This document shows positions 42,603 through 62,650 of a stretch of DNA of 64,000 nucleotides, piece by piece (position 1 is the stretch's first letter; every line of letters begins with the position of its first letter). The notes under the pieces were generated by a model that had not been told where the DNA came from, ran no database searches, and saw only the letters and a list, made by a program, of their open reading frames with translations. Position numbers and translations under genes: made by a program. The DNA comes from Actinomycetota bacterium (lineage in GTDB: Bacteria > Actinomycetota > Actinomycetes > Actinomycetales > Microbacteriaceae). The stretch covers positions 1 to 64,000 of the forward strand of contig JAAFHT010000003.1 in assembly GCA_013297625.1 (NCBI GenBank), written 5' to 3'.

Positions 42603-42674
42603 TCCGCCTTGGTGTAACGGCAGCACGACAGCCTTTGGAGCTGTTAGGTCCAGGTTCGAATCCTGGGGGCGGAG
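42603..42674 (+). tRNA. tRNA-Gln (anticodon TTG)
   Basis: TCCGCCT/GGGCGGA acceptor, anticodon stem ACAGC-CTTTGGA-GCTGT, T-loop GGTTCGAATCC. Confidence 0.95.
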
Positions 42675-42963
42675 CAACGCAGTGCGTTGCTCCGCGCGAC
42701 CACTTGCCCGCACGTTTGGTGCCGTTCGTCGCATCTGGTGCTCGACGTTTCGCACCAAACGCGAAAAACCTCACCACGCGAGGGCGTCGGGCCGCGCATA
42801 CGCGCACGGCGCGAATCGTGCGGCCGCGAACGACCTGCGCCAGAATGGGCGCAGCGGTTCGACGGCGCCCGCACCACGGGATCCTGCGCGCCGTTGACCC
42901 ACCCCCGGCCGAGCAGCTGCCCCACCCGTGGCAGTGCCGGCTGGCCCGTGCCAAGGAGCCGCC

Positions 42964-44475
42964 GTGAGCATCCCCATCGCCCTCGCTACCCCGCTCGCCG
43001 AGCGCGCGTTCATCTCGGCCCTCGACCTGTTCAAGGTGGGCATCGGCCCATCGAGCTCGCACACGGTCGGCCCGCTGCGCGCTGCGCGTGCCTTCGTGGA
43101 TGGGCTGGGCGACCGGCTCGACCAGGTCGCGAGCGTCGAGTGCGTGCTGTTCGGCTCGCTCGGTTCGACGGGAGTCGGCCACGGCACCCCCGGCGCAGTT
43201 CTCGCGGGATTGAGCGGATGCGCGGTCGAGACCGTTACGCGCGATGACGTCGAGCGCGTGGTCGCCGATGCTGCGAACGGGATTCTGCGCCTCGGTGGCA
43301 CGCACCTCATCACGATCGTGCCGACGGTCGACGCGGTGTCCGGCGCGGTGCGGGCAACGGGAGCCACTTCCTCGGCTGAGGCCGAGAGCAGCACGGCCAG
43401 CGCGGCCAGCGGCACGGCCGGCGCGCCGGCCGCGGCCGCGTGGCTGCGCTTCGCTCCGCGCGAGCTTAAGCCGCGGCATCCGAACGCCCTGACTCTCACG
43501 GCGCGCGATGCCGCTGGCACCGTGCTCGCCGACGAGACCTACTACTCGGTCGGCGGTGGTTTCGTCGAGCGTGATGGTGATGACGGTGACGCGAGCGAGT
43601 CGACGACCGTGCCGTACCGCTTTGACACGGCTGACGAGCTGTTGCGGTTGTGCCGCGAACACGGGCTCAGCATCGCGCAGCTCGCGCGCGCGAACGAGGC
43701 CGCTGTGCGCGGTGAGGCGGCAACCAGTGTGGCCCTGCGCACAATCGCGCGCGCGATGGACGACTGCATTGACGCGGGCCTCTCGAGCACGGGCATCTTG
43801 CCCGGGGGGCTGAAGGTTCCGCGTCGGGCGGCGGGCATGGCCGACAACTTGCGTGCTCTCGACGCGCAGCCGACGCGTGACACGAGCCTCGAGTGGCTGC
43901 AGGCCTACGCCATCGCCGTGAACGAAGAGAACGCCGCGGGTGGTCGCGTTGTGACCGCCCCGACGAATGGCGCCGCGGGCATCATCCCCGCCGTCATGCG
44001 GCACGCGATCGACGTCATTGGTGTGGCCGACGCCGATGTCGCGCGCGAAGAGTTCTTGCTTGTCGCCGCCGTCATGGGCGCGCTCATCAAGTCGAACGCA
44101 AGCATCTCGGGTGCCGAGGCGGGGTGCCAGGGCGAGGTCGGCTCAGCCGCGTCCATGGCCGCCGCGGGCTTTGCGCACCTGCTCGGCGCCACGAACGAGC
44201 AGATCGAAAACGCCGCCGAAATCGCCATGGAACACTCGCTCGGCCTCACGTGCGACCCGGTCGCCGGTCTCGTGCAAATGCCGTGCATCGAGCGCAACGC
44301 CATCGGAGCGGGCAAGGCCGTGGCCGCCGCCCGCATGGCCATGCACGGCGACGGCACGCACCTCATCAGCTTCGACACCGTCGTGCAGACCATGCGGCAG
44401 ACGGGCGACGACATGTCGCGCAAGTACAAAGAGACGAGCGAGGGCGGCCTAGCCGTCAACTTCGTCGAGTGCTAG
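42964..44475 (+). CDS. sdaA: L-serine ammonia-lyase
   Basis: DLFKVGIGPSSSHTVGPLRAA; GAEAGCQGEVGSAASMAAAG; CDPVAGLVQMPCIERNAIGA. Confidence 0.95.
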   Translation: MSIPIALATPLAERAFISALDLFKVGIGPSSSHTVGPLRAARAFVDGLGDRLDQVASVECVLFGSLGSTGVGHGTPGAVLAGLSGCAVETVTRDDVERVVADAANGILRLGGTHLITIVPTVDAVSGAVRATGATSSAEAESSTASAASGTAGAPAAAAWLRFAPRELKPRHPNALTLTARDAAGTVLADETYYSVGGGFVERDGDDGDASESTTVPYRFDTADELLRLCREHGLSIAQLARANEAAVRGEAATSVALRTIARAMDDCIDAGLSSTGILPGGLKVPRRAAGMADNLRALDAQPTRDTSLEWLQAYAIAVNEENAAGGRVVTAPTNGAAGIIPAVMRHAIDVIGVADADVAREEFLLVAAVMGALIKSNASISGAEAGCQGEVGSAASMAAAGFAHLLGATNEQIENAAEIAMEHSLGLTCDPVAGLVQMPCIERNAIGAGKAVAAARMAMHGDGTHLISFDTVVQTMRQTGDDMSRKYKETSEGGLAVNFVEC

Positions 44476-44567
44476 GGCACTCGCATCATGCACGTCGAGT
44501 GCTGAGCCGAGCGAGGGTGCCGCGCGATCAGGCACGCGCGAGCATCCACCGCTGACACAATGGACGC

Positions 44568-46019
44568 ATGACCGACTCGCGCCTCGCCATCATCGTGCTC
44601 GCCGCTGGGCAGGGCACGCGCATGAAGTCGCAGACGCCCAAGGTGCTGCACCCGCTCGCCGGCGTTCCGCTCATCGGGCATGTACTCGCGACTGCTCGCG
44701 CCCTCGGCCCGGCGCATGTTGTCGCCGTCGTGCGTCACGAGCGCGACCGCGTCGCCGAGGCGATTTCTGCGCTGGATGCTCACGCGATCATCGCCGACCA
44801 AGATGAGATTCCCGGCACGGGTCGGGCCGTTGAGGCGGCGCTCGCCGCTTTGCCCGCCGACTTCGACGGCGACGTGCTCGTGGTGTCGGGCGACGTTCCG
44901 TTGCTCGATGCGGTAACGCTCGCCGACCTCGTCGATCGGCACCGTCGCCACGAGGCCGCGGCTACGGTGCTGAGCGCCGTGCTCGACGACGCCACCGGCT
45001 ACGGCCGCATCGTGCGCAACGACTCCGGTGCGCTCGACCGCATCGTCGAGCAGAAAGACGCGAGCGAGCTCGAGCGTGCGCTCACCGAGATCAACTCGGG
45101 CACCTACGTGTTTCGCAGTGCGCCCCTGCGCGACAAGCTCGCGCTTGTGTCGACCGACAACGCGGCGCAAGAGAAGTACCTCACCGACGTCATCGGCCTG
45201 TTGCGCGGCGATGGTCACTCCGTCGAGGCGTTGCCCGCCGGCCAGAGCTGGCTCGTTGCGGGGGTCAATGACCGCGTGCAGTTGAGCGACGCGGCCTTGC
45301 GGCTCAACGCGATGATCGTGCGCGGCTGGCAGCTTGCGGGCGTCACGATTAGCGACCCCGCGAGCGTGTGGATCGACCGCACCGTCTCGCTCGACGAAGA
45401 CGCCGAAGTGCTGCCGGGCACCCAACTCAAGGGCGCGACGTCGATTGCGCGCGGCGCCGTGGTGGGGCCCGAAACGACACTCGTCGACTGTGAGGTAGGG
45501 GAGGGTGCTCGCGTGAGCCGCACCGACGGCACGCTCGCGGTGATCGGTGCGGGAGCATCCGTCGGCCCCTTCGCCTACTTGCGCCCCGGCACCGTCATTG
45601 GCGAAAAGGGCAAGGTCGGCACGTTCGTCGAGACGAAGAACACCACGCTCGGCGCTGGCGCCAAAGTGCCGCACCTCTCGTACATCGGCGACACCACGGT
45701 CGGCGAGGGCACCAACATCGGGGCCGGCACGATCACCGCCAACTACGACGGCGTCAACAAACACCGCACCGACGTGGGCGCACACGCCCGCACGGGCTCA
45801 CACAACGTATTCGTAGCCCCCGTTAGGATTGGCGACGGAGCGTACACGGGAGCAGGAACGGTCGTCCGCAAAGATGTCCCGGCCGGCGCCCTGGCAGTGA
45901 ATGTGGCCCCTCAGCGCAACGTCGAACGCTGGGTGGCCGCCAACCGCCCGGGAACAGCTGCGGCTGAGGCAGCTGCGGCGGCATCCGCCGACACTGAATC
46001 TGACCCCGAGACCGCGTAG
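44568..46019 (+). CDS. glmU: Bifunctional GlcNAc-1-P uridyltransferase/glucosamine-1-P acetyltransferase
   Basis: IVLAAGQGTRMKSQTPKVLHPLAG; left-handed beta-helix C-terminus. Confidence 0.96.
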   Translation: MTDSRLAIIVLAAGQGTRMKSQTPKVLHPLAGVPLIGHVLATARALGPAHVVAVVRHERDRVAEAISALDAHAIIADQDEIPGTGRAVEAALAALPADFDGDVLVVSGDVPLLDAVTLADLVDRHRRHEAAATVLSAVLDDATGYGRIVRNDSGALDRIVEQKDASELERALTEINSGTYVFRSAPLRDKLALVSTDNAAQEKYLTDVIGLLRGDGHSVEALPAGQSWLVAGVNDRVQLSDAALRLNAMIVRGWQLAGVTISDPASVWIDRTVSLDEDAEVLPGTQLKGATSIARGAVVGPETTLVDCEVGEGARVSRTDGTLAVIGAGASVGPFAYLRPGTVIGEKGKVGTFVETKNTTLGAGAKVPHLSYIGDTTVGEGTNIGAGTITANYDGVNKHRTDVGAHARTGSHNVFVAPVRIGDGAYTGAGTVVRKDVPAGALAVNVAPQRNVERWVAANRPGTAAAEAAAAASADTESDPETA

Positions 46020-46065
46020 CCGACCAGCACATCAGCGTCGCCTCGGCGGCAGAAGGCGGGACCTC

Positions 46066-47043
46066 ATGGCCAGCATCAAGATCACCGGCCAGAAGCGCCT
46101 CGTCATCGTGACCGGCCGCTCGCACCCCACGCTCGCGCACGAGGTCGCGGAGTACCTGCAGACCGACGTCGTGCACACCGACGCTCGCACCTTTGCCAAC
46201 GGCGAGATCTACGCGCGCTACGACGAGAGCGTGCGCGGTTGCGACGCCTTCGTCATTCAGTCGCACGCGGCGCCCATCAACGAGGCGCTCATGGAGCAAC
46301 TGATCATGGTGGATGCCCTCAAGCGTGCGTCTGCCAAGCGCATCACCGTGGTCGCACCCTTTTACCCCTACGCCCGCCAAGACAAGAAGGGCCGCGGCCG
46401 CGAACCCATTTCGGCCCGACTCGTTGCCGACCTCTACAAGGCCGCGGGCGCCGACCGCATCATGAGCGTCGACCTGCACGCCGCGCAGATTCAGGGCTTC
46501 TTCGACGGCCCCGTCGACCACCTGTTTGCCATGCCCGTGCTGCTCGATCACTTTCAGAAGCAGCTCGACCCCTCAACGCTCACGGTCGTCTCGCCCGACA
46601 TGGGCCGCGTGCGGGTCGCCGACATCTGGAGCGACAAGCTCGGCGCGCCGCTCGCGATCATTCACAAGCGCCGTGACCCGCGCGTGCCCAACCAGGTCTC
46701 GGTGCACGACATCGTCGGTGAAGTCGAGGGCCGCGTGTGCCTCATTGTCGACGACATGATCGACACGGGTCGCACGATCGTCAAGGCGGCCGAAGCGCTC
46801 AAGAAGAACGGCGCGACGGCTGTGGTGGTCGCCGCAACGCACGCCGTGTTCAGCGACCCCGCCTTCGAGATCTTGCAGGATGCCGCGGTCGACCAGGTCG
46901 TCGTCACAGACACCCTGCCCGTTCCGGCCGAAAAGCGCTGGGACCGCCTCACGGTGCTCTCGATCGCCCCGCTCATCGCGCGCGCGATTCACGAGGTGTT
47001 CGACGATGGGTCGGTCACCTCAATGTTTGATGGCGCCGCCTAA
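46066..47043 (+). CDS. prs: Ribose-phosphate pyrophosphokinase
   Basis: FPYARQDKK-like FYPYARQDKKGRGREPISARLVADL; CLIVDDMIDTGRTIVKAAEAL. Confidence 0.96.
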   Translation: MASIKITGQKRLVIVTGRSHPTLAHEVAEYLQTDVVHTDARTFANGEIYARYDESVRGCDAFVIQSHAAPINEALMEQLIMVDALKRASAKRITVVAPFYPYARQDKKGRGREPISARLVADLYKAAGADRIMSVDLHAAQIQGFFDGPVDHLFAMPVLLDHFQKQLDPSTLTVVSPDMGRVRVADIWSDKLGAPLAIIHKRRDPRVPNQVSVHDIVGEVEGRVCLIVDDMIDTGRTIVKAAEALKKNGATAVVVAATHAVFSDPAFEILQDAAVDQVVVTDTLPVPAEKRWDRLTVLSIAPLIARAIHEVFDDGSVTSMFDGAA

Positions 47044-48115: not shown

Positions 48116-48607
48116 ATGTCGCTTGGACCCCGTGTGGTCTTCGTGCGGTTTCTCGACGACGAGAGCCCCAAACTGAAGCCCTGGATCGCCCACGCGTCGA
48201 GCGTTCTCAGCGCCGACTCGCGATCGATGCCCGCTGCTACCCCGGGCACCTCGGGCGAGGGCAGTGCGGTGTGGCACTTGGTGTCGGCCAATAATCGCGA
48301 GCTTGCGCGAGGGGTGGGCGTTCACGCGACGTTCGAGCAGGCGCGCACGCACGCCGAGCGCGTTGTGGCCGCGGGATCGAACCTGGTCATTGAGCCTGTC
48401 AGCGAGCCTGCGCGTGGCGTCTACGGCTGGTACGCATCGGTTGATGGCGAGCCGGTCATGACGTGCGCGCGCTGGTACGTCACCGACCGTGACCGTCGCC
48501 ACTCCGCTGAACTGGCAGCGCGATCGATCGCGGTTGCCGTCTTGCTCGCCGGCTCTCGATTGACCGACCCCACTCTCATGGGAGGTCGCCGTGGAGCCGC
48601 GGACTGA
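48116..48607 (+). CDS. Uncharacterised protein heading the pst locus
   Basis: MSLGPRVVFVRFLDDESPKLKPWIAHASSVLS...; 3' end overlaps pstC start by 17 nt, suggesting translational coupling. Confidence 0.7.
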   Translation: MSLGPRVVFVRFLDDESPKLKPWIAHASSVLSADSRSMPAATPGTSGEGSAVWHLVSANNRELARGVGVHATFEQARTHAERVVAAGSNLVIEPVSEPARGVYGWYASVDGEPVMTCARWYVTDRDRRHSAELAARSIAVAVLLAGSRLTDPTLMGGRRGAAD

Positions 48608-49607
48608 CCGCATCGTCATTGACGGCGTGAGCGACGGGCCGCGAACGCTTTCTTCGGTCGTCGATCGACCGGATGCTGTGTTCCGGTGGATCGCGCGCAG
48701 CGGCGGCACGATCGTCGTCACCGTCATGACCCTTGTCGGGCTCTTCTTGCTTATCCGCGGGTTTGAGGCGATTCAGTTTGCGGGGCCCGCCTTCGTCATC
48801 GAACAGGCGTGGGACCCGAACTCGGGCAAGTTCGGCATCGCGGCCGTCTTCTTGGGCACTGTCTTCATCGCACTCACGGCCATCTTCTTTGCGCTGCCGC
48901 TCTCGTTCGGCACCGCACTCTACATCAGTGAGTACGCACCGCAGCGGCTCAAGCCGTTCCTGATCACGACGGTTGACCTCATGGCGGCAATTCCCAGCAT
49001 CGTGTACGGGCTGTGGGGCTTCTTCTTCCTGTCGCCGCTCATCCTTCCGCTCTCGCAATGGCTGGCCACCTACATCGGCCCGTGGTTTCCGCCGTTCGCG
49101 GTCGCGGGCTTTGACCCCAACGACCCCCTGGCGACCCCGACGATCTTCTCGGCGTCGACCTTCATTGCCGGCATCGTCGTGGCCCTCATGGTCGCTCCGA
49201 TCACGAGCTCGATCATGCGCGAGGTCTTCCAGCAGGCCCCACTCGGAGAGCGGGAGGGCGCGCTTGCTCTCGGGGCCACCAAGTGGGGCATGATCACGAG
49301 CGTCGTGATCCCCTACGGCCGAGGCGGAATCATCGGCGGAACGATGCTCGGCCTGGGCCGCTCGCTCGGCGAGACCATCGCGGTCTTCCTCATCATTTCG
49401 CCGGTGTTTGTCATCCAGCCACAGATTCTCGAAAAGGGCGGCAACTCCATTTCGGCGCTCATCGCACTGCGCTACAACGAAGCCTCTGCCTTCGAGATTT
49501 CCGCGCTCATGGCGGCCGGTCTCGCCTTGTTCATCGTCACGCTCATCATCAACTTCGGTGCCTCGACCATCGTGGCGCGCAGTCGATCCGGAAGCGTGGG
49601 CGACTAA
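48591..49607 (+). CDS. pstC: Phosphate ABC transporter permease PstC
   Basis: AIPSIVYGLWGFFFLSPL; REVFQQAPLGEREGALALGATKWGMI; RSLGETIAVFLI. Confidence 0.94.
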   Translation: MEPRTDRIVIDGVSDGPRTLSSVVDRPDAVFRWIARSGGTIVVTVMTLVGLFLLIRGFEAIQFAGPAFVIEQAWDPNSGKFGIAAVFLGTVFIALTAIFFALPLSFGTALYISEYAPQRLKPFLITTVDLMAAIPSIVYGLWGFFFLSPLILPLSQWLATYIGPWFPPFAVAGFDPNDPLATPTIFSASTFIAGIVVALMVAPITSSIMREVFQQAPLGEREGALALGATKWGMITSVVIPYGRGGIIGGTMLGLGRSLGETIAVFLIISPVFVIQPQILEKGGNSISALIALRYNEASAFEISALMAAGLALFIVTLIINFGASTIVARSRSGSVGD

Positions 49608-49632
49608 TGGCCGCGACGAGGGAGCACTGCTC

Positions 49633-50976
49633 GTGACCGACGTAATCGAACGCCCGAATGCTCACGGTAGTGATGACGAGCGCGACGCCGTTGACGGAGA
49701 ACCAGCAGCTCGTTCTCCTCGCACCTGGACGCGCACAGACACGCCAACGCCCGCCTCGGCACCCGAGCTGCGCCGTTCGACAGCAACTATTCGCTCGATC
49801 GACGTCATTCGACTGATCGGATCAGCACTCGCAGCGGTCGCATTGACCTCGTGGTTGTTCTTCTATGCGCTGCCGCTCGAAGGCGAACTGGGCTTTGTTC
49901 TCGTCTCGTACGGCTTTTTCTTGCTGTTCTTCGGCATCTTGACGGCGTTCGATGAGAACCGCCCGACGGTGCGCGATCGCCTGGCGAGCGTCGTGATGCA
50001 TTCGCTGGCCTTCTTGCTCCTGCTGGCGCTCTTCTCGGTCGTGGTCTACACGACCCTGCGAGGGCTCGAACCTCTCGGGATTCCGACGTTCTTTCCGAAC
50101 TTCTACCTAGAAGACATGAGTAACGCGGGCCCCCTTGATGGCCTTGATCGCGGCGGCGTGGCGCATGCCATCGTGGGCACGCTGATCATGATCACAATCG
50201 CGCTCATTCTCACGGTTCCGCTGGGCATTCTCACGGCCGTGTTTCTCACCGAGTACCCGGGTCGGTTCTCGCGATTCGTTCGAACGGTGGTCGAAGCCAT
50301 GACCGCCTTGCCGTCAATCGTCGCTGGCCTCTTTGTGTACGCGATCATCGTGCAGTTCGGCCTTACTCGCTCGGGCTTTGCCGCCGCGTGTGCGATCACC
50401 GTGATGATGCTGCCGATCGTCGTGCGGTCGGCCGATGTCGTCTTGCGCCTCGTGCCGTCGAGCCTGAAGGAGGCGGCGCGCGCTCTGGGAGCATCCACGT
50501 GGCGCACCGTCTGGACGGTCACGATTCCGACGGCTCGCTCGGGGCTCACCACTGCCGTGATCTTGGGAACAGCTCGGGGAATTGGCGAGACCTCGCCCGT
50601 TCTTCTCACCGCCGGCGCCACAACGTTCTTCAACTTCAACCCCTTCAGCGGCCCCATGACGTCGTTGCCGCTAACCACCTTCACGTTCATCAAGTCGCCT
50701 GAGCTCAACTTCATCGCTCGTGGATTCGGCACCGCCGTTGTGCTCATGGCTCTCGTTGTGATCTTGTTCGTGATCGCCCGTGCCATCGGCGGACGCGGCC
50801 CGGGCCAGCTCAGCGCGCGACAACAGCGTGCCCGCACGCAGGCGTCGCGCATCGACGACTACCGATTCCGTGCTCGCGAGCTGGGAATCACTCCGCCTCA
50901 GGCGGTGAGCCCGTTCGAACGACTCAAGCGGCTCATACCAATGCCCGCACGACGAAGGGTCACCCCTCATGACTAA
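49633..50976 (+). CDS. pstA: Phosphate ABC transporter permease PstA with N-terminal extension
   Basis: MTALPSIVAGLFVYAII; KEAARALGASTWRTVWTVTIPTARSGLTTAVILGTARGIGETSPVL; about 130 aa N-terminal extension with extra TM helices. Confidence 0.92.
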   Translation: MTDVIERPNAHGSDDERDAVDGEPAARSPRTWTRTDTPTPASAPELRRSTATIRSIDVIRLIGSALAAVALTSWLFFYALPLEGELGFVLVSYGFFLLFFGILTAFDENRPTVRDRLASVVMHSLAFLLLLALFSVVVYTTLRGLEPLGIPTFFPNFYLEDMSNAGPLDGLDRGGVAHAIVGTLIMITIALILTVPLGILTAVFLTEYPGRFSRFVRTVVEAMTALPSIVAGLFVYAIIVQFGLTRSGFAAACAITVMMLPIVVRSADVVLRLVPSSLKEAARALGASTWRTVWTVTIPTARSGLTTAVILGTARGIGETSPVLLTAGATTFFNFNPFSGPMTSLPLTTFTFIKSPELNFIARGFGTAVVLMALVVILFVIARAIGGRGPGQLSARQQRARTQASRIDDYRFRARELGITPPQAVSPFERLKRLIPMPARRRVTPHD

Positions 50977-52708
50977 CCCTGGGATGCGTGGCGTTCGCGC
51001 CGCGATCGCCCTCGCCCTCGTAGCCAGTGTGGGCCTCGGGCCCGCCGTCGCTCAGGCTTCGCCCGCGCGCGCGGTGGGAATCGTCTACCAGCCCATTGAG
51101 GGTGCCGGGTCAACGTGGTCGGCAAATGCACTGCAGCAGTGGGTGCGCAACGTCTTCGACAACTACCGCTGGAAGATCTCGTACAACGACCAGGGCTCGT
51201 CGGCGGGCCGACAGTTGTTTGCTCAAGGGACGACCGACTTCGGCGTCTCAGAGATTCCCTACGCTCTCGCGAACAGCGACAGCCCTGACCCGCGGCCCGC
51301 TCGTCAGTTCGCGTACATCCCCATCGTCGCCGGTGGAACCGCGTTCATGTACAACCTCGTCATCGGAGGGCAGCGGGTTACCAACCTTCGCCTCTCGGGC
51401 GAGACCGTCGCGAAGATCTTCACCGGAGTCATCACCAAGTGGAACGATCCGGCGATCGCCGCCGACAACCCCAAACTTGCGCTTCCGGCGACGACGATCG
51501 TTCCTGTCGTTCGTTCTGATGGGTCGGGTACGACGGCCCAATTGACGGCATGGATGCGCGCTCAGCATCCGGCGATCTGGAACGCCTATTGCGCCAAAGC
51601 GGGTCGGTCGAACTGTGGAATCACCTCGAACTACCCCGTCATTCCCGGCTCGGCTTTCTTGGCCCAGCAGGGGTCGAATCAGGTTGCCAGCACGGTAGCG
51701 AAGAACAGTTCGGTCGGGGCCATTACCTACGTTGAGGCCTCGTACGCGATCAACGCCCGCTTCCCCGTGGCGAAGCTGCTCAACGCGGCCGGCTTCTACA
51801 CCGAGCCGACGGCCTCGAATGTTGCGGTGTCGCTGCTGTCGGCCGTGATCAACAACGACCCGAACTCGCAGGAGTACCTCACCGCCAACCTGAGCCCGGT
51901 CTACAACAGCAAAGACCCTCGGGTGTATCCGTTGTCGTCGTACTCGTACATCATCGTGCCGACGGCGATCGAAGGAAACTTCACGCTCGATAAGGGGCTC
52001 ACGCTCGCCGATTTTGTGTCGTACTTCTTGTGCGAAGGGCAGCAGCAGGCCGAAGTTCTTGGCTACTCGCCCTTGCCGATCAACCTGGTTCAAGGAGGCC
52101 TTGAACAGGCTCAGTTGATCCCCGGCGGGGATCCGCAGAACAAGAACGTCTCGACGTGCAATAACCCGACGTTCTCACCAGACGGCACGAACAAGCTCGC
52201 CAATGAGGCACCGCAGCCTCAGGCCTGTGACAAGAAAGGCCCCGACCAGTGCTTGACCGGTACGGGTGGCGCCTCGGGAACTCCCACCGTCGGTAGTGGC
52301 ACCACAAACCTGGGAACAGGCGGCACCGGTGGAGGCGAGTCGGGCGAAGACGGTGACAACAGCGACGGTCTTGGGTCGGTCGGTGATGGCGAGACCGTGG
52401 GACTCGGCGGCGGCAGCAAGATCGTGACCGGAACGCCGCTCACGCTCGATTCGCGGGGGATCGAACCCCACGTGCTGGTGCTCATGATTCTGGCCACTCT
52501 CGTGGCTTTGTCGGCAGTTTTGTTGCCGCCGATCATCGCTCGTCGCCGGGCTGCGCTCGCTCTCGCCGCACCGGTCGGTTCCATTCCGCGCGCCGCCACT
52601 CAGCCTCGTGGCTCCCCGTACACGCGACGACCATCGATGCCAAAAATTCACCTACCCGCCCGCTTTACAAAATTCGGCCGTGCGACTGCGCCGGGTGAGG
52701 ACTCTTAG
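50969..52708 (+). CDS. pstS: PstS-type phosphate-binding protein with C-terminal TM anchor
   Basis: EGAGSTWSANALQQW, TDFGVSEIPYAL, VRSDGSGTTAQLTAWM; Gly-rich linker then HVLVLMILATLVALSAVLLPPIIARR; no lipobox Cys. Confidence 0.9.
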   Translation: MTNPGMRGVRAAIALALVASVGLGPAVAQASPARAVGIVYQPIEGAGSTWSANALQQWVRNVFDNYRWKISYNDQGSSAGRQLFAQGTTDFGVSEIPYALANSDSPDPRPARQFAYIPIVAGGTAFMYNLVIGGQRVTNLRLSGETVAKIFTGVITKWNDPAIAADNPKLALPATTIVPVVRSDGSGTTAQLTAWMRAQHPAIWNAYCAKAGRSNCGITSNYPVIPGSAFLAQQGSNQVASTVAKNSSVGAITYVEASYAINARFPVAKLLNAAGFYTEPTASNVAVSLLSAVINNDPNSQEYLTANLSPVYNSKDPRVYPLSSYSYIIVPTAIEGNFTLDKGLTLADFVSYFLCEGQQQAEVLGYSPLPINLVQGGLEQAQLIPGGDPQNKNVSTCNNPTFSPDGTNKLANEAPQPQACDKKGPDQCLTGTGGASGTPTVGSGTTNLGTGGTGGGESGEDGDNSDGLGSVGDGETVGLGGGSKIVTGTPLTLDSRGIEPHVLVLMILATLVALSAVLLPPIIARRRAALALAAPVGSIPRAATQPRGSPYTRRPSMPKIHLPARFTKFGRATAPGEDS

Positions 52709-52709
52709 C

Positions 52710-55394
52710 GTGTCGACCGTGTCAACCACCTCACAGCCCTCTCAGCGTGCGCGCCGACGCGTTGCGTTAGGCCGCGTTGCGTTCGCGACGATTGCGGCCG
52801 TGAGCTTTGGGGGCCTTGTGGCGGGAGCCCCCGCGGCACCGGCCGCGGCGGCAGCGCCGACGCCGATCACGATCGCGTGGGATGGCGACACCTCTTCTGC
52901 TGCGAGCTTTCAGCCGACGCGCGACCCCGCGAGCCCGCACTACTCCGAGATGCGCAACATCACTGTGACGGTGAGCCAAACGACGAACATTGGCGATCAA
53001 GCGATTCGCGTGAATGTGGCCGGGTTCGCTGGCACCCGGTCAGCGATCTCTGAGGGTGTCCAGAACGGCGCCAACTTCGTTCAGGCCATGCAGTGTTGGG
53101 GTGACGACCCCAATGCGGCAGACTTCGTCGAGAGCTGCCAATGGGGCGGCCGATTGCCCACCGTGCTCGGCAACGCCGTCTACTTCGACAACGCCTTCCG
53201 CGTGTCGACGAAGGACTACACCCCGACCCCGGCGACCGCCTACGACAACCCGTTCGTCACCGTCAGCGGCGCGGTCGTGACGGCTAAAGCAAACCTCGAC
53301 AGCGCGGGGCGCACGTTTAACCCGATTCTGAGCTACTTCAGCCCCTCGACGACCAACGAGGTACCGCTCGCGCGAATCGGCGCGGATGGCACGGGCTATT
53401 TCGACTTCGAGACTCAGTCGTCGAGCCAGTCGCCGCACTTGGGGTGTGGCGATGCGGGGCAATTGCGCTGCTGGCTCGTCATCGTGCCTCGCGGAACGAA
53501 GTTCGGCGGCGGCGAGAATGGTTCCGACCCGACCGACTGCAGTGACCTGACCAACCGCTTTGGCGTTTCGTACACCTACGGCCAAGCCGCCACGATTCAA
53601 GGCGGAAGCCCGGTCAACCCGAAGTGTGACTACTTCGAGAACCGCATTGTCGTGCCGCTTGACTTCACGCCCACAGCGGTGTCGTGCCCGTCAGGGGCCC
53701 CCGAGTTTCGTGTGTCTGGTTCGCAATTCATGATCTCGGCCATGAGTTCGTGGCAGCCCTCGCTCTGCCAAGAGGTCGGTAGCACCTTCAGCTTTGCGAC
53801 CAACCCTGATGGAGTGGCACGGGCCCAATTGCTCGAAGAGCGCTCGGGCTCGCCTGAGCTCATCTACAGCGGGTATCCGGTGACGAGCGCAGAACTGCCG
53901 ACCGTCGACGAGCGAACGCTCTTCACCAAAACGGCGTTTGAGTACGTTCCCATCGCGGTCTCGAGCATGGTCATTGCGTACAACGCAGAGTTTGCCAACG
54001 GCCGTCAAGAGAGTTTGGTCATCACTCCGCGCCTCATGGCCAAGCTCTTGACGCAGTCGTACTCGTTCACCGTGCCGCAGTCGACCGCGACGCCGACGCA
54101 GGCGATTGCGCACCTGTCGGCGGCCGCGCGCGGCTACAACTACTGGTCGACCGACCCCGACTTTCGCGCGGCAAACCCCAGCAACTGGCAAAACTTCGAA
54201 CAGCAGACCCCGAGCATCGTCCTCCCGGGGCCGGCTGCCGCTGACGGAATCAAGCAGGTCTGGCGATGGATTCTGGCAGACCAGGATGCCGTGGCCTTCC
54301 TTAACGGAACCCCCGACCCCTGGGGAATGACGGTCAATCCCTACTACCTGCCGCGGACCGCGACGAACCTCATCCCCTGGTACTACGACGCGAGCCTGAA
54401 CTACCTGCCCACGCCGACAACGCGTCAGGTGGGTCAAGTGAACATCGACGGCAGCCCACTGCAGATCAGCACCACCGTTCTCGACACCTTCCCCAAAGAT
54501 GACGGCAGCTTGCTGCCGTTCGAGCTCTCGCAGACGAACGGTACGAGCCGTTACGACACGATTCAGTTCGCCCCGTACGCCATTGACTACCTCGCGGCGG
54601 CGCGTCAGGCGTTCCGTGGCGACCCCAACTCGCGGGTGTTGTGGGATGCCAACCGCATCAATGACGCCGGTAACTTCGGCGCCTGGATCAGCACGGGTGT
54701 GCAAGACGCCGGGGCGCGGTTCATGATCGCTGTCACCGACTCCGCCAATGCGGCGCGGTATGGCTTGACGACCGCCCAGCTCACGCCCTCCAACACGACG
54801 ACTCCGGTTTCGAGCACGGCCGAGACGATGACGGCGGCACTTGCGGCCCTCTCGCCCACGTCGCTCGATGCCGTCTTGCAGGTCGACCCCGCGAAGGTGA
54901 CGGGAAACGCGTACCCCCTCACGATGGTGACCTACGCCGGAGTCAACCTGACGAAGTCGACCCCAGCATCCCGAACCACCATGACCGGCATGCTGCAGCA
55001 AATCACGACGACGGGCCAAGTGCAGGGAACCGCGCTTGGCCAACTGCCGGTCGGATACGTTCCCTTGACGGCCGAGTTGACGACGAAAGCGGCGGCGGCA
55101 ACCAGCCGCATTCAGTCGTGGACCCCGCCCAAGGCGCCCTCACCCACGCCGAGTTCGAACTCGAACTCCAACTCTTCATCGAACTTCCCGACTCTTGACG
55201 ACGAAGGCGGCTCGGGCGTCGAGCCCGGCGTTGACCCCGAGCTCACTCCCGGTGTCGATGAATTGTCAGAAGACCGCACGCCCGAATCGACGTCGGGGGT
55301 GCTCAACGGCGGTCTCGCGGTTTCGCTCGTGGTCGGCCTACTCGGCTTCGTCTTTGCCCCGGGCATCTTGCGCGGCGGAGGTCTGTTCTTCTAA
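52710..55394 (+). CDS. Large secreted, C-terminally anchored substrate-binding-like protein
   Basis: 894 aa from GTG; signal sequence, SNSNSNSSSN linker, C-terminal TM (LAVSLVVGLLGFVFAPGIL); periplasmic-binding-like segments (FVPIAVSSMVIAYN-type YVPIAVSSMVIAYNAEF, MAKLLTQSY). Confidence 0.75.
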   Translation: MSTVSTTSQPSQRARRRVALGRVAFATIAAVSFGGLVAGAPAAPAAAAAPTPITIAWDGDTSSAASFQPTRDPASPHYSEMRNITVTVSQTTNIGDQAIRVNVAGFAGTRSAISEGVQNGANFVQAMQCWGDDPNAADFVESCQWGGRLPTVLGNAVYFDNAFRVSTKDYTPTPATAYDNPFVTVSGAVVTAKANLDSAGRTFNPILSYFSPSTTNEVPLARIGADGTGYFDFETQSSSQSPHLGCGDAGQLRCWLVIVPRGTKFGGGENGSDPTDCSDLTNRFGVSYTYGQAATIQGGSPVNPKCDYFENRIVVPLDFTPTAVSCPSGAPEFRVSGSQFMISAMSSWQPSLCQEVGSTFSFATNPDGVARAQLLEERSGSPELIYSGYPVTSAELPTVDERTLFTKTAFEYVPIAVSSMVIAYNAEFANGRQESLVITPRLMAKLLTQSYSFTVPQSTATPTQAIAHLSAAARGYNYWSTDPDFRAANPSNWQNFEQQTPSIVLPGPAAADGIKQVWRWILADQDAVAFLNGTPDPWGMTVNPYYLPRTATNLIPWYYDASLNYLPTPTTRQVGQVNIDGSPLQISTTVLDTFPKDDGSLLPFELSQTNGTSRYDTIQFAPYAIDYLAAARQAFRGDPNSRVLWDANRINDAGNFGAWISTGVQDAGARFMIAVTDSANAARYGLTTAQLTPSNTTTPVSSTAETMTAALAALSPTSLDAVLQVDPAKVTGNAYPLTMVTYAGVNLTKSTPASRTTMTGMLQQITTTGQVQGTALGQLPVGYVPLTAELTTKAAAATSRIQSWTPPKAPSPTPSSNSNSNSSSNFPTLDDEGGSGVEPGVDPELTPGVDELSEDRTPESTSGVLNGGLAVSLVVGLLGFVFAPGILRGGGLFF

Positions 55395-55527: not shown

Positions 55528-56616
55528 ATGCACAAGCACACGAAGCTGCGCTTCGGCGTAGTTGCAGCGCTCGCTGTCGCGGCGCTCACTTTCGGTACGG
55601 CGGCGCCGGCATTTGCCGACCCCGACCCGTTGGGCCCGCCGAAGCAGCTCAACGGTACTGGCTCCGACACGACGCAAGACGTCATGAGCGGCGTCGCGAG
55701 CGTTGTCACTAACATCGGAAACTGGGATGCCGTGCCCGCGGGCAGCAGCATCACCGTTGACGGCACGACGTTCAGCCGGCCGATTGGCTCGACCGCGGGC
55801 ATCCGCGCACTCAGCTCGTCGATTCGCGGCATCGCCTACGCTGGCACGACGCTTCCGGTCGGCACCCTCGACTTTGCTCGTGCTTCGGCGCTGCGCAGCG
55901 AAGCCGGCACCGAGTTGACCTACATCCCGTTCGCGCGTGACGCGGTCACCATTGCCATGAACATCTCGAGCGACTTCCCGAAGGATGTCGCGCTCGGTGC
56001 TGCAGGCCAGGCCACCAACCTGTTCACGCTGCGCAACATCTACCTCGGCACCGTCACCTCGTTCATCGACAGCGCCGGCAACACGGTCACCATCCGTCCG
56101 TTGCTGCCGCAGGCGAACTCGGGAACCCGCACCTACTGGGTGAGCGTTCTCGGCACCACCGAGGCCGCGCTGACCGCGGGTGGCCGCGCCACCGACCTGG
56201 GCAACACGGTGCAAGAGCACGACGGTACCTTCTTGACGCGCGATGGCGACATCGTTCCGTTCTCGGTCGGTCAGTGGTTGGCGCAGAGCAACAACCGCTC
56301 GCTGCCCACGGCCGTTGTTGAGCGTCGCGGCCAGGCCGTTCTCGGCAGCATCGACACTGTCAAGCCGATCATCTACGACGGTACGACGATCACGACGAAC
56401 CCGGACTTCCTTCCGAGCCGTCTGGTCTACAACGTCGTCGAGACCCGTGCGCTCACCACGAGCACCCCGTCGGCCAACGACCTCGCCATTCGTGCGGCGT
56501 TCGCCGGTTCGACGTCGGCCGTGTGTGCAGCGCAGACGCAGATCAAGCAGTACGGCTTCGCCACCATCGGCTCGCAGTGCGGCAGCACCACGACGCAGCG
56601 CGGCTACGTCAACTAA
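55528..56616 (+). CDS. Secreted PstS-like substrate-binding protein without anchor
   Basis: Signal peptide ...TFGTAAPAFADPDP; LNGTGSDTTQDVMSGV; QANSGTRTYWVSVLGT; 362 aa. Confidence 0.75.
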   Translation: MHKHTKLRFGVVAALAVAALTFGTAAPAFADPDPLGPPKQLNGTGSDTTQDVMSGVASVVTNIGNWDAVPAGSSITVDGTTFSRPIGSTAGIRALSSSIRGIAYAGTTLPVGTLDFARASALRSEAGTELTYIPFARDAVTIAMNISSDFPKDVALGAAGQATNLFTLRNIYLGTVTSFIDSAGNTVTIRPLLPQANSGTRTYWVSVLGTTEAALTAGGRATDLGNTVQEHDGTFLTRDGDIVPFSVGQWLAQSNNRSLPTAVVERRGQAVLGSIDTVKPIIYDGTTITTNPDFLPSRLVYNVVETRALTTSTPSANDLAIRAAFAGSTSAVCAAQTQIKQYGFATIGSQCGSTTTQRGYVN

Positions 56617-56661: not shown

Positions 56662-57972
56662 ATGAAACTCATGAAAAAGGCCGCTTCTGTGGCCCTCGCC
56701 AGTGCGCTGGTCGTGGTTGGCCTGAGCGCTGCTCAGCCGGCCTTGGCCGACCAGATCCCGGGTACCCTCACCCTGGTCAGCGGCAACGGCTCCAGCGGAG
56801 CTTCTCTGAATGGTTCGAACACGGACACCTACTTCCTGAACTCCGTCGCGACCAGCGTCGGCGCTCCGGTCGGGTTCCGTGCCGCCAGCACCAGCCAGAT
56901 TTTCCAGGGCGGCGTGCTGGTTGGAAACATCTCCAACCTGCGCACGACTTCGATGGCAGTGACGGCGGGAACGAACGGTCTTGACGGCAACCCTGCCCTC
57001 ATGGACCGCTCGGTCATCGCTACGAACAACTTCGTGAGCAACAAGAAGCTGGACAACGCGGCACTCTCGACCCTCGTCTCGGGCCCGTTCGAGTACCGCT
57101 ACTACTTCCACGCCTCGAGCACCTCGCTTGACCTGGTCAACGACAAGTACCTGTCGATCACGTTGAACTACAACGCGACCGCTGGAACCTGGAGCCTTCC
57201 GGTCTCGGCTACGGCGACGGCCACCTCGCTCACCGCGAGCGCCTCGGGCACGAACGTCACCCTCGCGGCGACGGTCACCCCCTCGGGCACCGCGGGCAAC
57301 GTGGTGTTCCGCGAGGGTGCGACCACTGTCGCGACCGTCGTGAACGCTGCGGGTACCGTCAGCACGACCCTCACGGGCGTGTCGAACGGTCCGCACACCT
57401 ACACGGCCCAGTTCGTGCCGACCAACGCCACGCTGTTCACGGGCTCAACCTCGGGCACCGCATCGGTCACGGTCGGCAGCCAGCCGGCCCCCGCGACCGT
57501 CACGGGTGACATCACCGTGCAGGTTGCCAACGGTGTTGGCGGCGGCGCTCTCGTGCTGACGGCTTCGTCGCTCACGGCGAACCTCGGCTCGGTCGTCAAC
57601 TCGGGTGGAACGCTTAACGCCTCGGGCACCGTCACCGCTGTGGTCGACGACTCGCGTCAGGCTGGCGCTGCGGCGTTCTCGCTGACCGGCCAGGTGAGCG
57701 ACTTCACCGCTCCGGGTGGGCTCGTGCTCAGCTCGAGCTACCTCGGCTGGACCCCCACCGTGACCGGTGTGGGAACGGGCGGTGCTGTCGTTACGTCGTC
57801 GTCGTCGGCGACTGGCGGCCTCAAGGTTGCGCGCGTGTGGGCGACGGGCACCCCGTCGGCCGCTGACCCGCAGCCGACCACCACCAACGCGTCGGCCCTG
57901 CTGCAGCTGCGGGCCCCGCTCAACACCGCGCCCGGCAACTACTCGGCGCTGCTGACGGTGACCCTCACCTAA
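56662..57972 (+). CDS. Secreted Ig-like repeat protein with WxL-like C-terminal domain
   Basis: Signal peptide; Ig-like VTLAATVTPSGTAGNVVFREGATTVATVVNAAGTVSTTLTGVSNGPHTYTAQFVPTN; C-terminus VTAVVDDSRQAGAAAFSLTGQVSDFT...YLGWTPTV...LQLRAPLNTAPGNYSALLTVTLT. Confidence 0.7.
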   Translation: MKLMKKAASVALASALVVVGLSAAQPALADQIPGTLTLVSGNGSSGASLNGSNTDTYFLNSVATSVGAPVGFRAASTSQIFQGGVLVGNISNLRTTSMAVTAGTNGLDGNPALMDRSVIATNNFVSNKKLDNAALSTLVSGPFEYRYYFHASSTSLDLVNDKYLSITLNYNATAGTWSLPVSATATATSLTASASGTNVTLAATVTPSGTAGNVVFREGATTVATVVNAAGTVSTTLTGVSNGPHTYTAQFVPTNATLFTGSTSGTASVTVGSQPAPATVTGDITVQVANGVGGGALVLTASSLTANLGSVVNSGGTLNASGTVTAVVDDSRQAGAAAFSLTGQVSDFTAPGGLVLSSSYLGWTPTVTGVGTGGAVVTSSSSATGGLKVARVWATGTPSAADPQPTTTNASALLQLRAPLNTAPGNYSALLTVTLT

Positions 57973-58118
57973 GCACCTGCACCACCGTGGCGGGCTGGGC
58001 GGATTCGTGACCGCTCAGCCCGCTGCGGGCATTCGTGCGACTTGGACTACCCGGCTCGCGCACCCCGTGTTTCTCTTCCGTCAACCTGTTGCACGCTTTC
58101 TGATGATTGGTTCATGCA

Positions 58119-59309
58119 ATGCGTTTCCCCGCCGCTTATGCCTCTGCCACTGTCGTTCTGAGCCTTGCGCTCGCGCTCGTGGGAATCGGCGCCGCCGCCG
58201 CTCCTACTGGCCCCCTGCAGCAAGCCGAGGGAGACGTCACCTGGAGTGTTCAACCCGCCAACACCGTCAACGGCACGCGCACGCAGTTCGAGTACTCGAC
58301 TGACCCGGGTACGCAAGTCGTTGACTATGTGGTCGTCTCTAATCGCGGCACGACCGCCGCCGAGTTCGCGATCTATGCCACCGATGCGACCAACGATGTT
58401 GAGACCGGAGCCTTCGGCCTTCTGCCGAGCAACGAGCCCCCCGTCGACATGGGTTCGTGGATCACCATGGATGTTGAGTCGGTCACTCTCGAGCCCGGCC
58501 AGGCGAGCACCATCCCCTTCAATCTTCTGATTCCGTCTGACGCCACCCCGGGCGACCACGTGGCGGGAATCATCGCCTCGATCACAACCACGGCCGATGA
58601 CGACGGCACGACCGTCAGTCTCGAACAGCGGGTCGGCGCTCGGGTCTACCTTCGCGTCTCAGGCGACGTCGCAGCGTCAGCCGAAGTCTCGGGTGTCACG
58701 ACGACCTTTACCCCCGAACTCAACCCCTTCGCCTTTGGTCGGCTCACGCTCGACTACTCCGTGCGCAACACCGGCAACGTGCGCATGGATGTCGTGCAAG
58801 ACGTGCAGATCACCGGCCCGTTTGGCATTCCCCTGGCGACCATCACGCCTCAGCCGCTCGTCGACCTCTTGCCGAGACAGACCGTCGGCGTCTCAGCAGA
58901 CGTTCCGCAAATCGCGGCCTTGTTCCTGGCCTTCTCCACCATCACGGTCACCCCCGGCCCGTTGGGGTCGGCCGAGGCCCCCGCCGTCGAAGACAGTGAG
59001 ACGGCGGTCGAGACCGCGACTCCTGAACCGACGGATGCCCCCGCAGAGCTCGACCCCACCGCAGCTCCTCCCATTGACGCCTCGAACCTCGACGATCGTG
59101 TCGACTTCATCCCGGTGACGGCGGGAGCAACCACGCTCACTGTTTCGTGGACGCTCCTCCTGCTCGTCGTGATCATCGGAGGCGTCGCGTTCCTCGCCGT
59201 TCGCTACGTGGCGAACACGCGCGAGCAGATGTACGCCGCGATCGATGAAGCGGCGGCAGCAGCGCGCGAAGAGGCGTTGGCGTCGGCAAACAAGGCGAAC
59301 GAAAAGTGA
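58119..59309 (+). CDS. DUF916 (WxL-interacting) family protein with C-terminal TM
   Basis: VTWSVQPANTVNGTRTQFEYSTDPGTQVVDYVVVSNRGTTAAEFAIYATDA...LEPGQASTIPFNLLIPSDATPGDHVAGIIAS; TM LLLLVVIIGGVAFLAVRYV. Confidence 0.8.
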   Translation: MRFPAAYASATVVLSLALALVGIGAAAAPTGPLQQAEGDVTWSVQPANTVNGTRTQFEYSTDPGTQVVDYVVVSNRGTTAAEFAIYATDATNDVETGAFGLLPSNEPPVDMGSWITMDVESVTLEPGQASTIPFNLLIPSDATPGDHVAGIIASITTTADDDGTTVSLEQRVGARVYLRVSGDVAASAEVSGVTTTFTPELNPFAFGRLTLDYSVRNTGNVRMDVVQDVQITGPFGIPLATITPQPLVDLLPRQTVGVSADVPQIAALFLAFSTITVTPGPLGSAEAPAVEDSETAVETATPEPTDAPAELDPTAAPPIDASNLDDRVDFIPVTAGATTLTVSWTLLLLVVIIGGVAFLAVRYVANTREQMYAAIDEAAAAAREEALASANKANEK

Positions 59310-60022
59310 CGGTCACCTCGGTAACGACGACGCTGTCGTTGGCCACGGTCGCGCTCGCGCTCGCGCTCGTCACTACGGCGAGTGTCGCGGCCACGGCTGC
59401 GACACCCCCTCCCTCGGAGGGCCCGATTACGGTGGTCGTGCCGGCGACATCGTCACCGAGCCCGTCGCCGAGCAGCACGGGAACACGTGGAGGCGGGTCG
59501 ACGGGCGCGTCGGGCGAGACCCCCGACGACGTCGTCGCCGGAGCGCCGACGTGCGCGGCGTCGAACGCTGATGGTTCGCCCACCCCCGCGGCAACGCCGA
59601 AAGACGATGCTCGTGTACTGGCGGTCGACCGCGAACGGCTGATTGCCGGCGAGTGGATCATCACGCGGTCGTCTGACTTCACGCGCGGCGAGAAGGTTCA
59701 GATTGTGATGTATCCCGGAGCAGTGGTGATCGGGAGTTTCACGGTCGATGCTCCAACGGGTTTCGCGGCGCGATTCCGCATTCCTAATGAAACCTTGGTG
59801 GGGCAGTACTCTCTCGAGGCGACAGGCTGGGCCTCGTGCGCGGTTGCCAACAACGTCGTCACGATCGTCAGTGGCCCCGCGCCCACCCCGGCATCAGTCG
59901 TGTGGTGGCCGTACGCCGTGCTCGGCTCACTCAGCTTGGGCTTTGTGTCGCTCGTCTTCGCCTTCCGCGCCCAGATCGCTCTGTGGTTCGCGGCTTCTGC
60001 GGCATCGGTCTCGGTTCGATGA
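59306..60022 (+). CDS. Secreted protein with Pro/Ser/Gly linker and C-terminal TM
   Basis: Signal peptide, SSPSPSPSSTGTRGGGSTG linker, Ig-like domain, TM YAVLGSLSLGFVSLVFAFRAQI. Confidence 0.7.
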   Translation: MTVTSVTTTLSLATVALALALVTTASVAATAATPPPSEGPITVVVPATSSPSPSPSSTGTRGGGSTGASGETPDDVVAGAPTCAASNADGSPTPAATPKDDARVLAVDRERLIAGEWIITRSSDFTRGEKVQIVMYPGAVVIGSFTVDAPTGFAARFRIPNETLVGQYSLEATGWASCAVANNVVTIVSGPAPTPASVVWWPYAVLGSLSLGFVSLVFAFRAQIALWFAASAASVSVR

Positions 60023-60996
60023 CCGCAGTTTCTGACGAGGAGCGCACGGTCGCCCCGCCCAGCCCAGCGGCTCGACCTCCGCTGCCTTTTTGGCTGCGCA
60101 AGCGCCCGAAGCGGGTTCGGCCCCGCAAACCTGCACCGACCCCTCGAGATGTGCGGTGGTGGGTTGGTGTTGTCTGGCTCGTGTTGTCGGCAATTCTGTT
60201 GGGATTCGTCGCCCACGTCTCGCTCGTGGGTTCGCTGCATCACGCACGCTCGCAGTTCACGCTGTACCAAGAATTGCGATCGAGTTTGGCCCTGGCAACG
60301 GCCCCGCTCGGCCAACTTGACGTCGACGGTGTCTTGGTGCCTGAAGGCACGCCGATCGGTGTGCTCGTGATCGAGACCGACACCGTGTCTCTCAGCGAGG
60401 TCTTCGTGCAGGGAACGACGGCCGAGGTGCTCACTCTCGGACCTGGTCACCGGCGCGACACTGTCATGCCCGGCCAGGTCGGCACGAGCGTGATCATGGG
60501 GCGTCAAGCGACCTTCGGTGGGCCGTTCGGCTCGCTGAGCTTGCTCCGGACCGGTGACGAGATCACGGTCATTACCGGGCAAGGAGCGTCAACCTTCGAG
60601 GTCATCGGGCTGCGCCGCGAGGGCGAACTCTTGCCGATTCCGCTCGATGAGGGAGAGGGCCGACTCGAGCTCATTACGGCTGACGGAACCCCGTTCGTTC
60701 CCTCCGGTGCTCTGCACATCGATGCCGACCTCGTCGGTGAAGCGTTCGAGGCGCCGTCGCCGGTCTTCACCAAAGAAGTTCTCGAGCCCTCGGAGTTTGC
60801 CATGGTCACCGACGTGTCGGGCCTGATTCCGACACTGTTCTGGGCCCAGTTGCTCTTCGCCGCCATCGTCGTGATTCGGTGGGTGCGATCGCGCTGGGGC
60901 ATTTGGCAAACCTGGATCATTGCGACCCCCGTGGTCTTGGCCCTCGGCGCAGCTACCGCGAGCAGCGCCATGACCCTCTTCCCCAACCTGCTCTAG
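60019..60996 (+). CDS. Sortase-fold membrane protein lacking catalytic His and Cys
   Basis: N-terminal [46 protein letters not shown] and [10 protein letters not shown] align with class E-type sortase GPGHxxxTxxPGxxGNxxxxAHRxTYGxPF...GD and LxLTTC. Confidence 0.75.
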
Positions 60997-61009: not shown

Positions 61010-61981
61010 ATGACCGACAGCCCCCAGACCGTGACTGATGACGCCGTGACTGAATCGACCGAGCCGATCGACGAGCAACCTCAGAGCGACATTCCCGAAG
61101 AGACGAAACCGCTCGACGTCGATTCGGCGACCGCGACGCGTGAGCTCACCATGCCGAACCCGGTTGTGGGCGACGACCTTGAGCGCATTCTCGCGCCCGC
61201 GGCGGAGCTGGCCGAACTTGAGGCCCGCCAGATTTCGGCGTGGTTTGGAGAGCGCAAGGTGCTCGACCGCGTCGATCTCACGATGGAGGCGGGCAAGATC
61301 ACGGCACTCATTGGGCCTTCGGGTTGTGGCAAATCGACGTTCTTGCGCATCCTGAACCGCATGCACGAAATGGTGCCGTCGGCATCGCTTGCCGGTGAGG
61401 TGTTGCTCGACGGTGAAGACATCTACGGCGCCACTCGTCGGCTCACGCAGGCTCGCCGCGATATCGGCATGGTGTTCCAGAAGCCCAATCCTTTTCCGGC
61501 CATGTCGATCTACGACAACGTCATTGCCGGCCTCAAGCTCACGGGCATCAAGGCCAGCAGAGACGTCAAAGACGCCCTCGTTGAGTCGAGCTTGATCAAG
61601 GCGGGGCTCTGGAAAGAGGTGCGCGACCGACTGCGGCAGCCCGGTGGCGGCTTGTCGGGTGGCCAACAGCAGCGTCTCTGCATCGCTCGCTCGCTCGCTG
61701 TTCGGCCACGCGTGCTGCTCATGGACGAGCCGTGTTCGGCCCTCGACCCCACATCGACTCGCGTCATTGAAGAGACGATGCTCGAGCTGGCGAAAGAGGT
61801 CACGATCGTCATCGTGACCCACAACATGCAGCAAGCTCAGCGGGTTTCCGACAACTGCGCATTCTTCTTGGCTGCGCAAGGCACCCCCGGATTGATCGTC
61901 GAACAGGGCGACACGGGAGTCATGTTCGATAGCCCCACCGACTCACGCACCTTCGACTACGTCAACGGTCGATTCGGGTAG
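61010..61981 (+). CDS. pstB: Phosphate ABC transporter ATPase PstB with acidic N-terminal extension
   Basis: [73 protein letters not shown]. Confidence 0.95.
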
Positions 61982-61984
61982 GTC

Positions 61985-62650
61985 GTGAACGCGACCGACG
62001 ATCCGTTCCGCGCGGTTCACCGCGCGCATCGTCGGGTTGTCTGGGCGCGCACTTTCGGTGCGGCCGCGATCGTTGCCATCGGTGTGAGCCTGGTTTCGCT
62101 GGCGGATGCTGCGCCGGTGTCGAGCGATACTGTGGCCGCGGCATCCACCCCCGGGGTCTTGGTCGCGCCAGGGCCGCATGCATCGTCAGCGCCCGCGCCA
62201 GCTGCGGTCGATGAGGTGCCCGCTTTCGCGCCGTTGCCCGAGGCTCCGGCGGCCGCGATAGCGGAACCCGCTGCACCGCTCGAGCCTGCCGCGGCTCTTC
62301 TCGACGGCGGCCCATGGCAGATCACGATTGACACCGTCGGGTACCAAGCCGAGATCGACGCGTGCTTGTGGGTGCGCATGAACCTTGGCGGCCCGGCGCC
62401 GATCGTCGGAGCCCACAACTACTGTGGCGGCGGAATCGTGCTCGACATGATGATCGGTGAGACCGTCACGCTCGCGGGCACCGAACTGGATGGTACGTAC
62501 GTCGTGACGGAGGCCCGCGACGCGCGAGTCGGAGAATCCGCCCGCGGGGCAACCGCAGGCATGGCGGCCGACGTGATTCTGCAGACCTGTTATTGGGATA
62601 GTGACGGCCGACTACGGCTCGTGGGGCTCACCCCGGCCGCGGCGAACTAG
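61985..62650 (+). CDS. Secreted sortase-like protein
   Basis: N-terminal TM, Ala/Pro linker, then WQITIDTVGYQAEIDACLWV...PIVGAHNYCGGGIVLDMMIGETVTL...DVILQTCYWDSDGRLRLVGLTP; His, TxC-like Cys and Arg in sortase order. Confidence 0.6.
   Translation: MNATDDPFRAVHRAHRRVVWARTFGAAAIVAIGVSLVSLADAAPVSSDTVAAASTPGVLVAPGPHASSAPAPAAVDEVPAFAPLPEAPAAAIAEPAAPLEPAAALLDGGPWQITIDTVGYQAEIDACLWVRMNLGGPAPIVGAHNYCGGGIVLDMMIGETVTLAGTELDGTYVVTEARDARVGESARGATAGMAADVILQTCYWDSDGRLRLVGLTPAAAN

Follow-up and report, generated by a model that had tools for sequence, protein, structure and literature searches.

A divergent WxL/WxLIP-type gene pair lies within a recurring actinobacterial Pst-type operon that also encodes a dead sortase-like protein and extends to Streptomyces. 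In lactic-acid bacteria, WxL proteins and their WxLIP partners are a known pair for surface display; the operon setting is a larger point here than the pair itself. The two genes, which we call P0001 and P0006, lie in a 64,000-nt stretch of a Microbacteriaceae genome (the window). In our reading, P0006 probably tethers P0001 non-covalently, as the surface part of an accessory Pst importer. Anchored in the membrane through its C-terminal helix, P0006 would capture the WxL-like C-terminal domain of P0001 with its Ig-like DUF916 half. P0001 would be held, non-covalently, at the membrane–wall interface, with its N-domain and Ig domain displayed. Together the two genes would make up a cassette occupying a variable ‘display’ slot beside three phosphate-type binding proteins, the dead sortase-like protein and PstB, and the display protein would probably organise PBP3, a secreted binding protein, or keep it close to the permease.

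A WxL-like/DUF916 gene pair within a Pst-type operon

The initial annotation had placed an Ig-containing, WxL-like protein gene ahead of a DUF916 gene inside a pst operon. Both open reading frames were recovered in that order, Pfam and NCBIfam profiles confirmed the Pst neighbours, and the Pst-type operon recurs in many genera. The cluster comprises the following features.

48591–49607, plus strand: pstC permease (TIGR02138, 256 bits; cut-off 196)
50030–50976, plus strand: pstA permease (start approximate, inside the ORF 49408–50976)
50969–52708, plus strand: PstS with a C-terminal transmembrane (TM) segment (Pfam, NCBIfam)
52713–55394, plus strand: bigPBP, a large PstS-like protein with a C-terminal TM segment (start codon uncertain; the ORF list starts at 52608)
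55528–56616, plus strand: PBP3, a secreted PBP_like_2 protein without an anchor of its own
56662–57972, plus strand: P0001, secreted, with an N-domain followed by an Ig domain (Big_3-like) and, at the C-terminus, a WxL-like domain (the last at about 57463–57969)
57640–57711, plus strand: motif-1 region of P0001 (VDDSRQAGAAAFSLTGQVSDFT; D-x-R kept, W replaced by F)
57934–57969, plus strand: motif-2 region of P0001 (GNYSALLTVTLT; G-x-Y kept, W replaced by V)
58119–59309, plus strand: P0006, DUF916/WxLIP-like, with two Ig-like domains, a C-terminal TM helix and a cytoplasmic helix
59306–60022, plus strand: P0003, a small secreted protein with a C-terminal TM segment, overlapping the stop of the DUF916 gene
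60019–60996, plus strand: pseudo-sortase related to class E, flanked by TM segments (Arg for the catalytic His, Ala for the Cys, zero cysteines)
61010–61981, plus strand: PstB-type ATPase (TIGR00972, 336 bits; cut-off 343)
61985–62650, plus strand: final ORF of the cluster, whose secreted product recurs in three close relatives

From pstC to this final ORF the cluster is tightly packed and runs entirely on the plus strand, with a gap of 146 nt between P0001 and P0006. The latter probably starts at the ATG at 58119 rather than at the TTG at 58107, where the ORF list begins. Neighbourhood comparison showed P0003 to accompany WxL-type slot content.

As in the PstSCAB importer, homologues of PstC, PstA, PstB and PstS lie together, PstC scoring above its equivalog cut-off and PstB and PstS slightly below theirs. 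PstS resembles solved PstS proteins and has kept a phosphate motif of the SDGSGTT type; PBP3 and bigPBP match phosphate-binding proteins only weakly. We infer phosphate to be the substrate. Unlike PstSCAB, the operon carries three binding proteins, two of them C-terminally TM-anchored, as well as the display slot and the pseudo-sortase. Since the same genome holds another pstC/pstA locus (contig C125), the window operon is a second, accessory Pst-type operon. The bigPBP ORF (window 52608–55394) encodes conserved cysteines and a C-terminal TM segment; only its C-terminal part is PstS-like, and it served as an operon marker.

P0006 resembles solved WxLIP proteins

P0006 (396 aa) scored just above the cut-off of the Pfam WxLIP_PGBD/DUF916 profile (PF06030; 27.5 versus 27.3 bits, E 3.5e-6), and the same profile matched 17 of the 18 members of the P0006 alignment. 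Compared with the solved WxLIP of Enterococcus faecium (EfmWxLIP1), the P0006 family profile gave an E-value of 1e-6. An AF2 model (mean pLDDT 84) comprised two Ig-like domains and, after a stretch of low confidence, a long helix at the C-terminus (residues 344–395); the C-terminus consists of a hydrophobic TM segment followed by a charged, basic tail predicted to be helical and cytoplasmic. Both Foldseek and VIA-align ranked E. faecium WxLIP first for this model (9i25_C, Z 16.8 with 237 aligned residues and an rmsd of 5.3; 9i1y_A, Z 16.1; next row, 11.8), in an alignment that spans both Ig-like domains. As modelled, P0006 has the two-domain Ig-like fold of solved WxLIP, with which it also shares a signal peptide and a C-terminal TM segment. 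The profile score, the structural match and the modelled helix bear out the earlier description of a DUF916 protein with a C-terminal TM segment.

Unlike Bacillota WxLIP, the second domain of P0006 is not recognisable by sequence as DUF3324 (no Pfam match; hhalign 0.2%). The motif NQIDKxxxYFDLK of WxLIP proteins (PMC10599100) is absent, NGTRTQFEYSTDPG standing in its place. We refer to P0006 as ‘WxLIP-like’ and not as a member of the family.

The C-terminal domain of P0001 derives from WxL domains

In P0001 (436 aa) a signal peptide is followed by an N-terminal domain, an Ig domain resembling Big_3 and the WxL-like domain (about residues 268–435). The WxL-like domain, the last ~165 residues, occupies the C-terminal position of a secreted protein, and all aligned relatives terminate at motif 2. 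P0001 has neither of the WxL tryptophans, carrying F-S-L and V-T-L in place of W-x-L, and the Pfam WxL profile (PF13731) gave no match at E-values up to 10 for the domain and up to 1 for the whole protein. By its defining motif the domain is strictly not a WxL domain, and we name it ‘WxL-like’ rather than counting it as a member.

The missing Pfam match is not decisive, given a profile–profile comparison and the matches of relatives. Relatives of the C-terminal domain, aligning over ~165 residues, were gathered from genomes of the same family, and 8 of 22 matched Pfam WxL directly (best E 4e-5). For Bacillota, a plasmid collection was queried with a WxL-type consensus, used as bait only, which led to a set of 12 WxL domains from plasmid records, two of them from unannotated ORFs. 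When the 22 actinobacterial domains were compared with these 12, hhalign returned a probability of 92% (E 5.7e-7 for this single comparison) over 135 columns, and with 34 sequences 96% (E 4.4e-9); 40 column shuffles reached at most 0.4% and reversed profiles 0.1%. The alignment is colinear to the final residue and holds D-x-R...(W)-x-L and Y-x3-L-T-(W)-x-L both in register. This similarity exceeds chance and supports common ancestry of the P0001 C-terminal domain with Bacillota WxL domains; the domain is WxL-derived. The initial annotation's WxL-like C-terminal segment thus stands as a matter of homology, given the clean controls, and falls short on the two tryptophans and the Pfam match; of the two families it had named for an HMM search, DUF916 came out above its cut-off and WxL stayed silent on P0001.

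Across the alignment, the motif-1 tryptophan occurs in 71 of 74 domains and the motif-2 tryptophan in 0 of 74 (the window copy being counted more than once), and an LGW-x-P motif marks the actinobacterial WxL-like branch. Shared with Bacillota WxL domains are the D-x-R ahead of motif 1 and, in motif 2, the Y. The two motifs lie 94 residues apart in P0001, whereas in Bacillota the spacing is about 68 or 106 (PMC9772566). Two other leads were dropped: a weak profile match of the domain to the solved WxL chain 9i25_A (E 0.22) vanished with a larger alignment and is not counted as evidence, and Pfam WxL matches on contig C140 of the same genome fell in ORFs that on reading look like low-complexity frames.

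Structural searches bear on how the two proteins might interact. By its PDB title, 9I25 is a complex of WxLIP with a long WxL protein, and AF2 predictions for the E. faecium system insert a WxLIP strand into WxL (PMC10599100). With full-length P0001 as the query, the Ig domain dominated the Foldseek and VIA-align matches, and 9i25_A was not listed, an absence that says nothing either way; the best structural match of the C-terminal domain was the pilin domain of CfaE (Z 8.4). Behind WxLIP, fimbrial chaperones (Z about 10–11) came next among the structures matching P0006 over both domains, and the entry 6k73 holds both kinds of chain. Together with the predicted strand insertion, these matches could indicate a membrane-bound chaperone, P0006 completing the WxL-like fold in donor-strand style and then releasing P0001 rather than anchoring it. 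However, the Z values are within the range of common Ig-like arrangements and the cluster showed neither an usher gene nor a polymer gene, so that we regard release after folding as quite improbable.

The two genes are paired across genomes

That a WxL-like gene and a DUF916 gene belong together, as first proposed from their adjacency in the window, held up at larger scale. Among 149 genomes of the same family, DUF916 was found in 47, the WxL-like domain in 45 and both in 45, a co-occurrence with P 3e-36 when the kinship of the genomes is ignored. A WxL-like domain lay within 2.5 kb of 78 of the 83 DUF916 genes, and in 75 of these 78 loci it was upstream on the same strand. On the scale of the phylum (396 genomes), 34 of the 35 genomes with a WxL-like domain also had DUF916, which is the commoner of the two (91 of 396 Actinomycetota genomes, about a quarter). 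The window carries one WxL-like gene at its locus, and the relative L104 carries two. Within the family, many pairs lie outside pst operons, joined to other large secreted proteins, for instance phosphoesterase-like ones (named by eye).

In five non-pst loci (L069, L070, L071, L076 and L080), WxL-like domains are fused to metallophosphoesterase-like secreted proteins beside DUF916 genes. Ang-2 neighbourhoods likewise list metallophosphatases together with DUF916 (PMC12537917).

The arrangement shares with the WxL/WxLIP clusters of Bacillota (csc; E. faecium locus A; 9I25 and 9I1Y) a gene for a C-terminal WxL-type protein beside a DUF916 gene. It differs from them in that both tryptophans are lost in P0001, that one WxL-like protein is encoded instead of a small and a large one, and that the cluster lacks an LPxTG partner and an active sortase and sits in a Pst-type operon. 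The open-access literature, to which the search was confined apart from a minority of subscription papers, held nothing on point about actinobacterial WxL clusters, sortases in Pst operons or pseudosortases.

The operon is conserved and its display slot exchangeable

A scan of named genomes with bigPBP yielded 385 relatives, and the neighbourhoods of the best 80 of these 385, to which all locus counts below refer, revealed the conserved order pstC-pstA-pstS-bigPBP-PBP3-[slot]-pseudosortase-pstB. It occurs in Microbacteriaceae, Cellulomonas, Curtobacterium, Micromonosporaceae, Streptosporangiaceae, Streptacidiphilus and Streptomyces, as well as in Myceligenerans, Hamadaea and others; a Jiangella contig shows the order as far as the slot. 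Across the 61 complete loci, the slot contained a WxL-like and a DUF916 gene in 20, a P0001-type N-domain protein without WxL in six, WxL only in one, DUF916 only in one and neither in 33. Several N-domain slot proteins end in LAKTG, LPTTG, LALTG, LANTG or LAATG, followed by a TM segment and a basic tail (the LAxTG/LPTTG proteins at L131, L132, L142, L144 and L158 are of this kind). The slot is therefore exchangeable, holding the WxL-like/DUF916 pair or LxxTG-anchored proteins, or standing empty beside an Ig-tailed PBP3, and the LAxTG/LPTTG proteins suggest that a sortase anchor and a WxL/DUF916 anchor replace one another.

The same slot also bears on whether the cell wall is involved. P0006 and P0001 might form a stable extracellular complex in which P0006 merely ties P0001 to the membrane and P0001 serves the transporter as an accessory ectodomain, with no role in the wall. 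Such an arrangement would suit the TM helix and basic helical cytoplasmic tail of P0006, the loss of the signature tryptophans from P0001, and the finding that Pfam detected no known peptidoglycan-binding domain apart from the DUF916 match. Yet the proteins with LxxTG-type sortase signals that occupy the slot elsewhere suggest that wall attachment is useful there, and we hold a purely membrane-bound complex to be possible but the less probable state of affairs. Our preferred reading, a non-covalent tether, would place P0001 in contact with the wall.

PBP3 differs with the content of the slot: in ‘neither’ loci it is about 720 aa long (median ORF 721, some contigs being incomplete) and ends in Ig repeats, and in loci with a separate display protein it is about 386 aa long and without an anchor. 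This pattern of fusion and fission is our main ground for proposing PBP3 as the working partner of the slot protein.

The pair might, on the other hand, be a mobile cassette for the cell surface, unconnected with phosphate uptake, that merely hitch-hikes in this operon. Within the family it often occurs away from pst operons, it was absent from the two same-genus genomes sampled, and a midpoint-rooted DUF916 tree requires the setting to have switched between pst and non-pst three times or more. Against mere hitch-hiking stand the fixed place, flanked by PBP3 and the pseudo-sortase, that the pair occupies in 20 of the 61 complete operons, the clustering of pst-linked DUF916 proteins mostly in one clade, and the covariation of PBP3 architecture with slot content, which together make it rather unlikely to our minds.

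A predicted non-catalytic sortase relative adjoins pstB

The product encoded between P0003 and PstB is sortase-like by Pfam (E 5e-9) and scores 57 bits against the NCBIfam class E profile, far below its cut-off of 160. By sequence it resembles the solved class E sortases 5go5 and 5cuw, sharing the sortase fold by profile but, unlike them, lacking the catalytic His and Cys. The alignment puts Arg at the catalytic His, as in all 71 aligned sequences. At the catalytic Cys site, placed via a TLxTC-like motif, 63 of the 71 have Ala and the remainder Gly, Thr or Ser, with Cys in none; the window protein contains no cysteine at all. The gene adjoins pstB in 61 of 63 loci, Streptomyces included. Two other sortase-domain genes lie elsewhere in the genome. 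In the two same-genus genomes the best matches to the pseudo-sortase profile were weak (E about 1e-7; the window copy gave 1.7e-155), which is the level that ordinary sortases should reach. We infer a non-enzymatic scaffold or binding role for this family, which is arguably more novel than the WxL/WxLIP-type pair.

More broadly, the operon might represent a widespread ‘wall-integrated’ Pst importer of Actinomycetota, in which an exchangeable anchor organises the secreted binding proteins, the dead sortase acts beside the transporter as a docking subunit without enzymatic activity, and phosphate capture starts in the wall; we offer this as speculation and judge it unlikely in this full form. 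Should the tethering reading be true, WxL/WxLIP-type non-covalent display would not be special to gut Bacillota and host contact, but a modular means of anchoring, fitted by free-living actinobacteria to an importer of nutrients. The dead sortase family beside pstB and the DUF916 proteins of Actinomycetota would likewise gain a role open to testing.

Two minor observations concern the flanks of the operon. The product of the final ORF (61985–62650) has no family match and has homologues only in the relatives L098, L101 and L104; it contains ‘GAHN’ and ‘LQTC’ segments whose spacing is slightly reminiscent of sortase His and Cys. On the other side, glmU-prs lies near the operon with a MarR-type gene close by, both in the window (42603–47043) and in another genus (L064).
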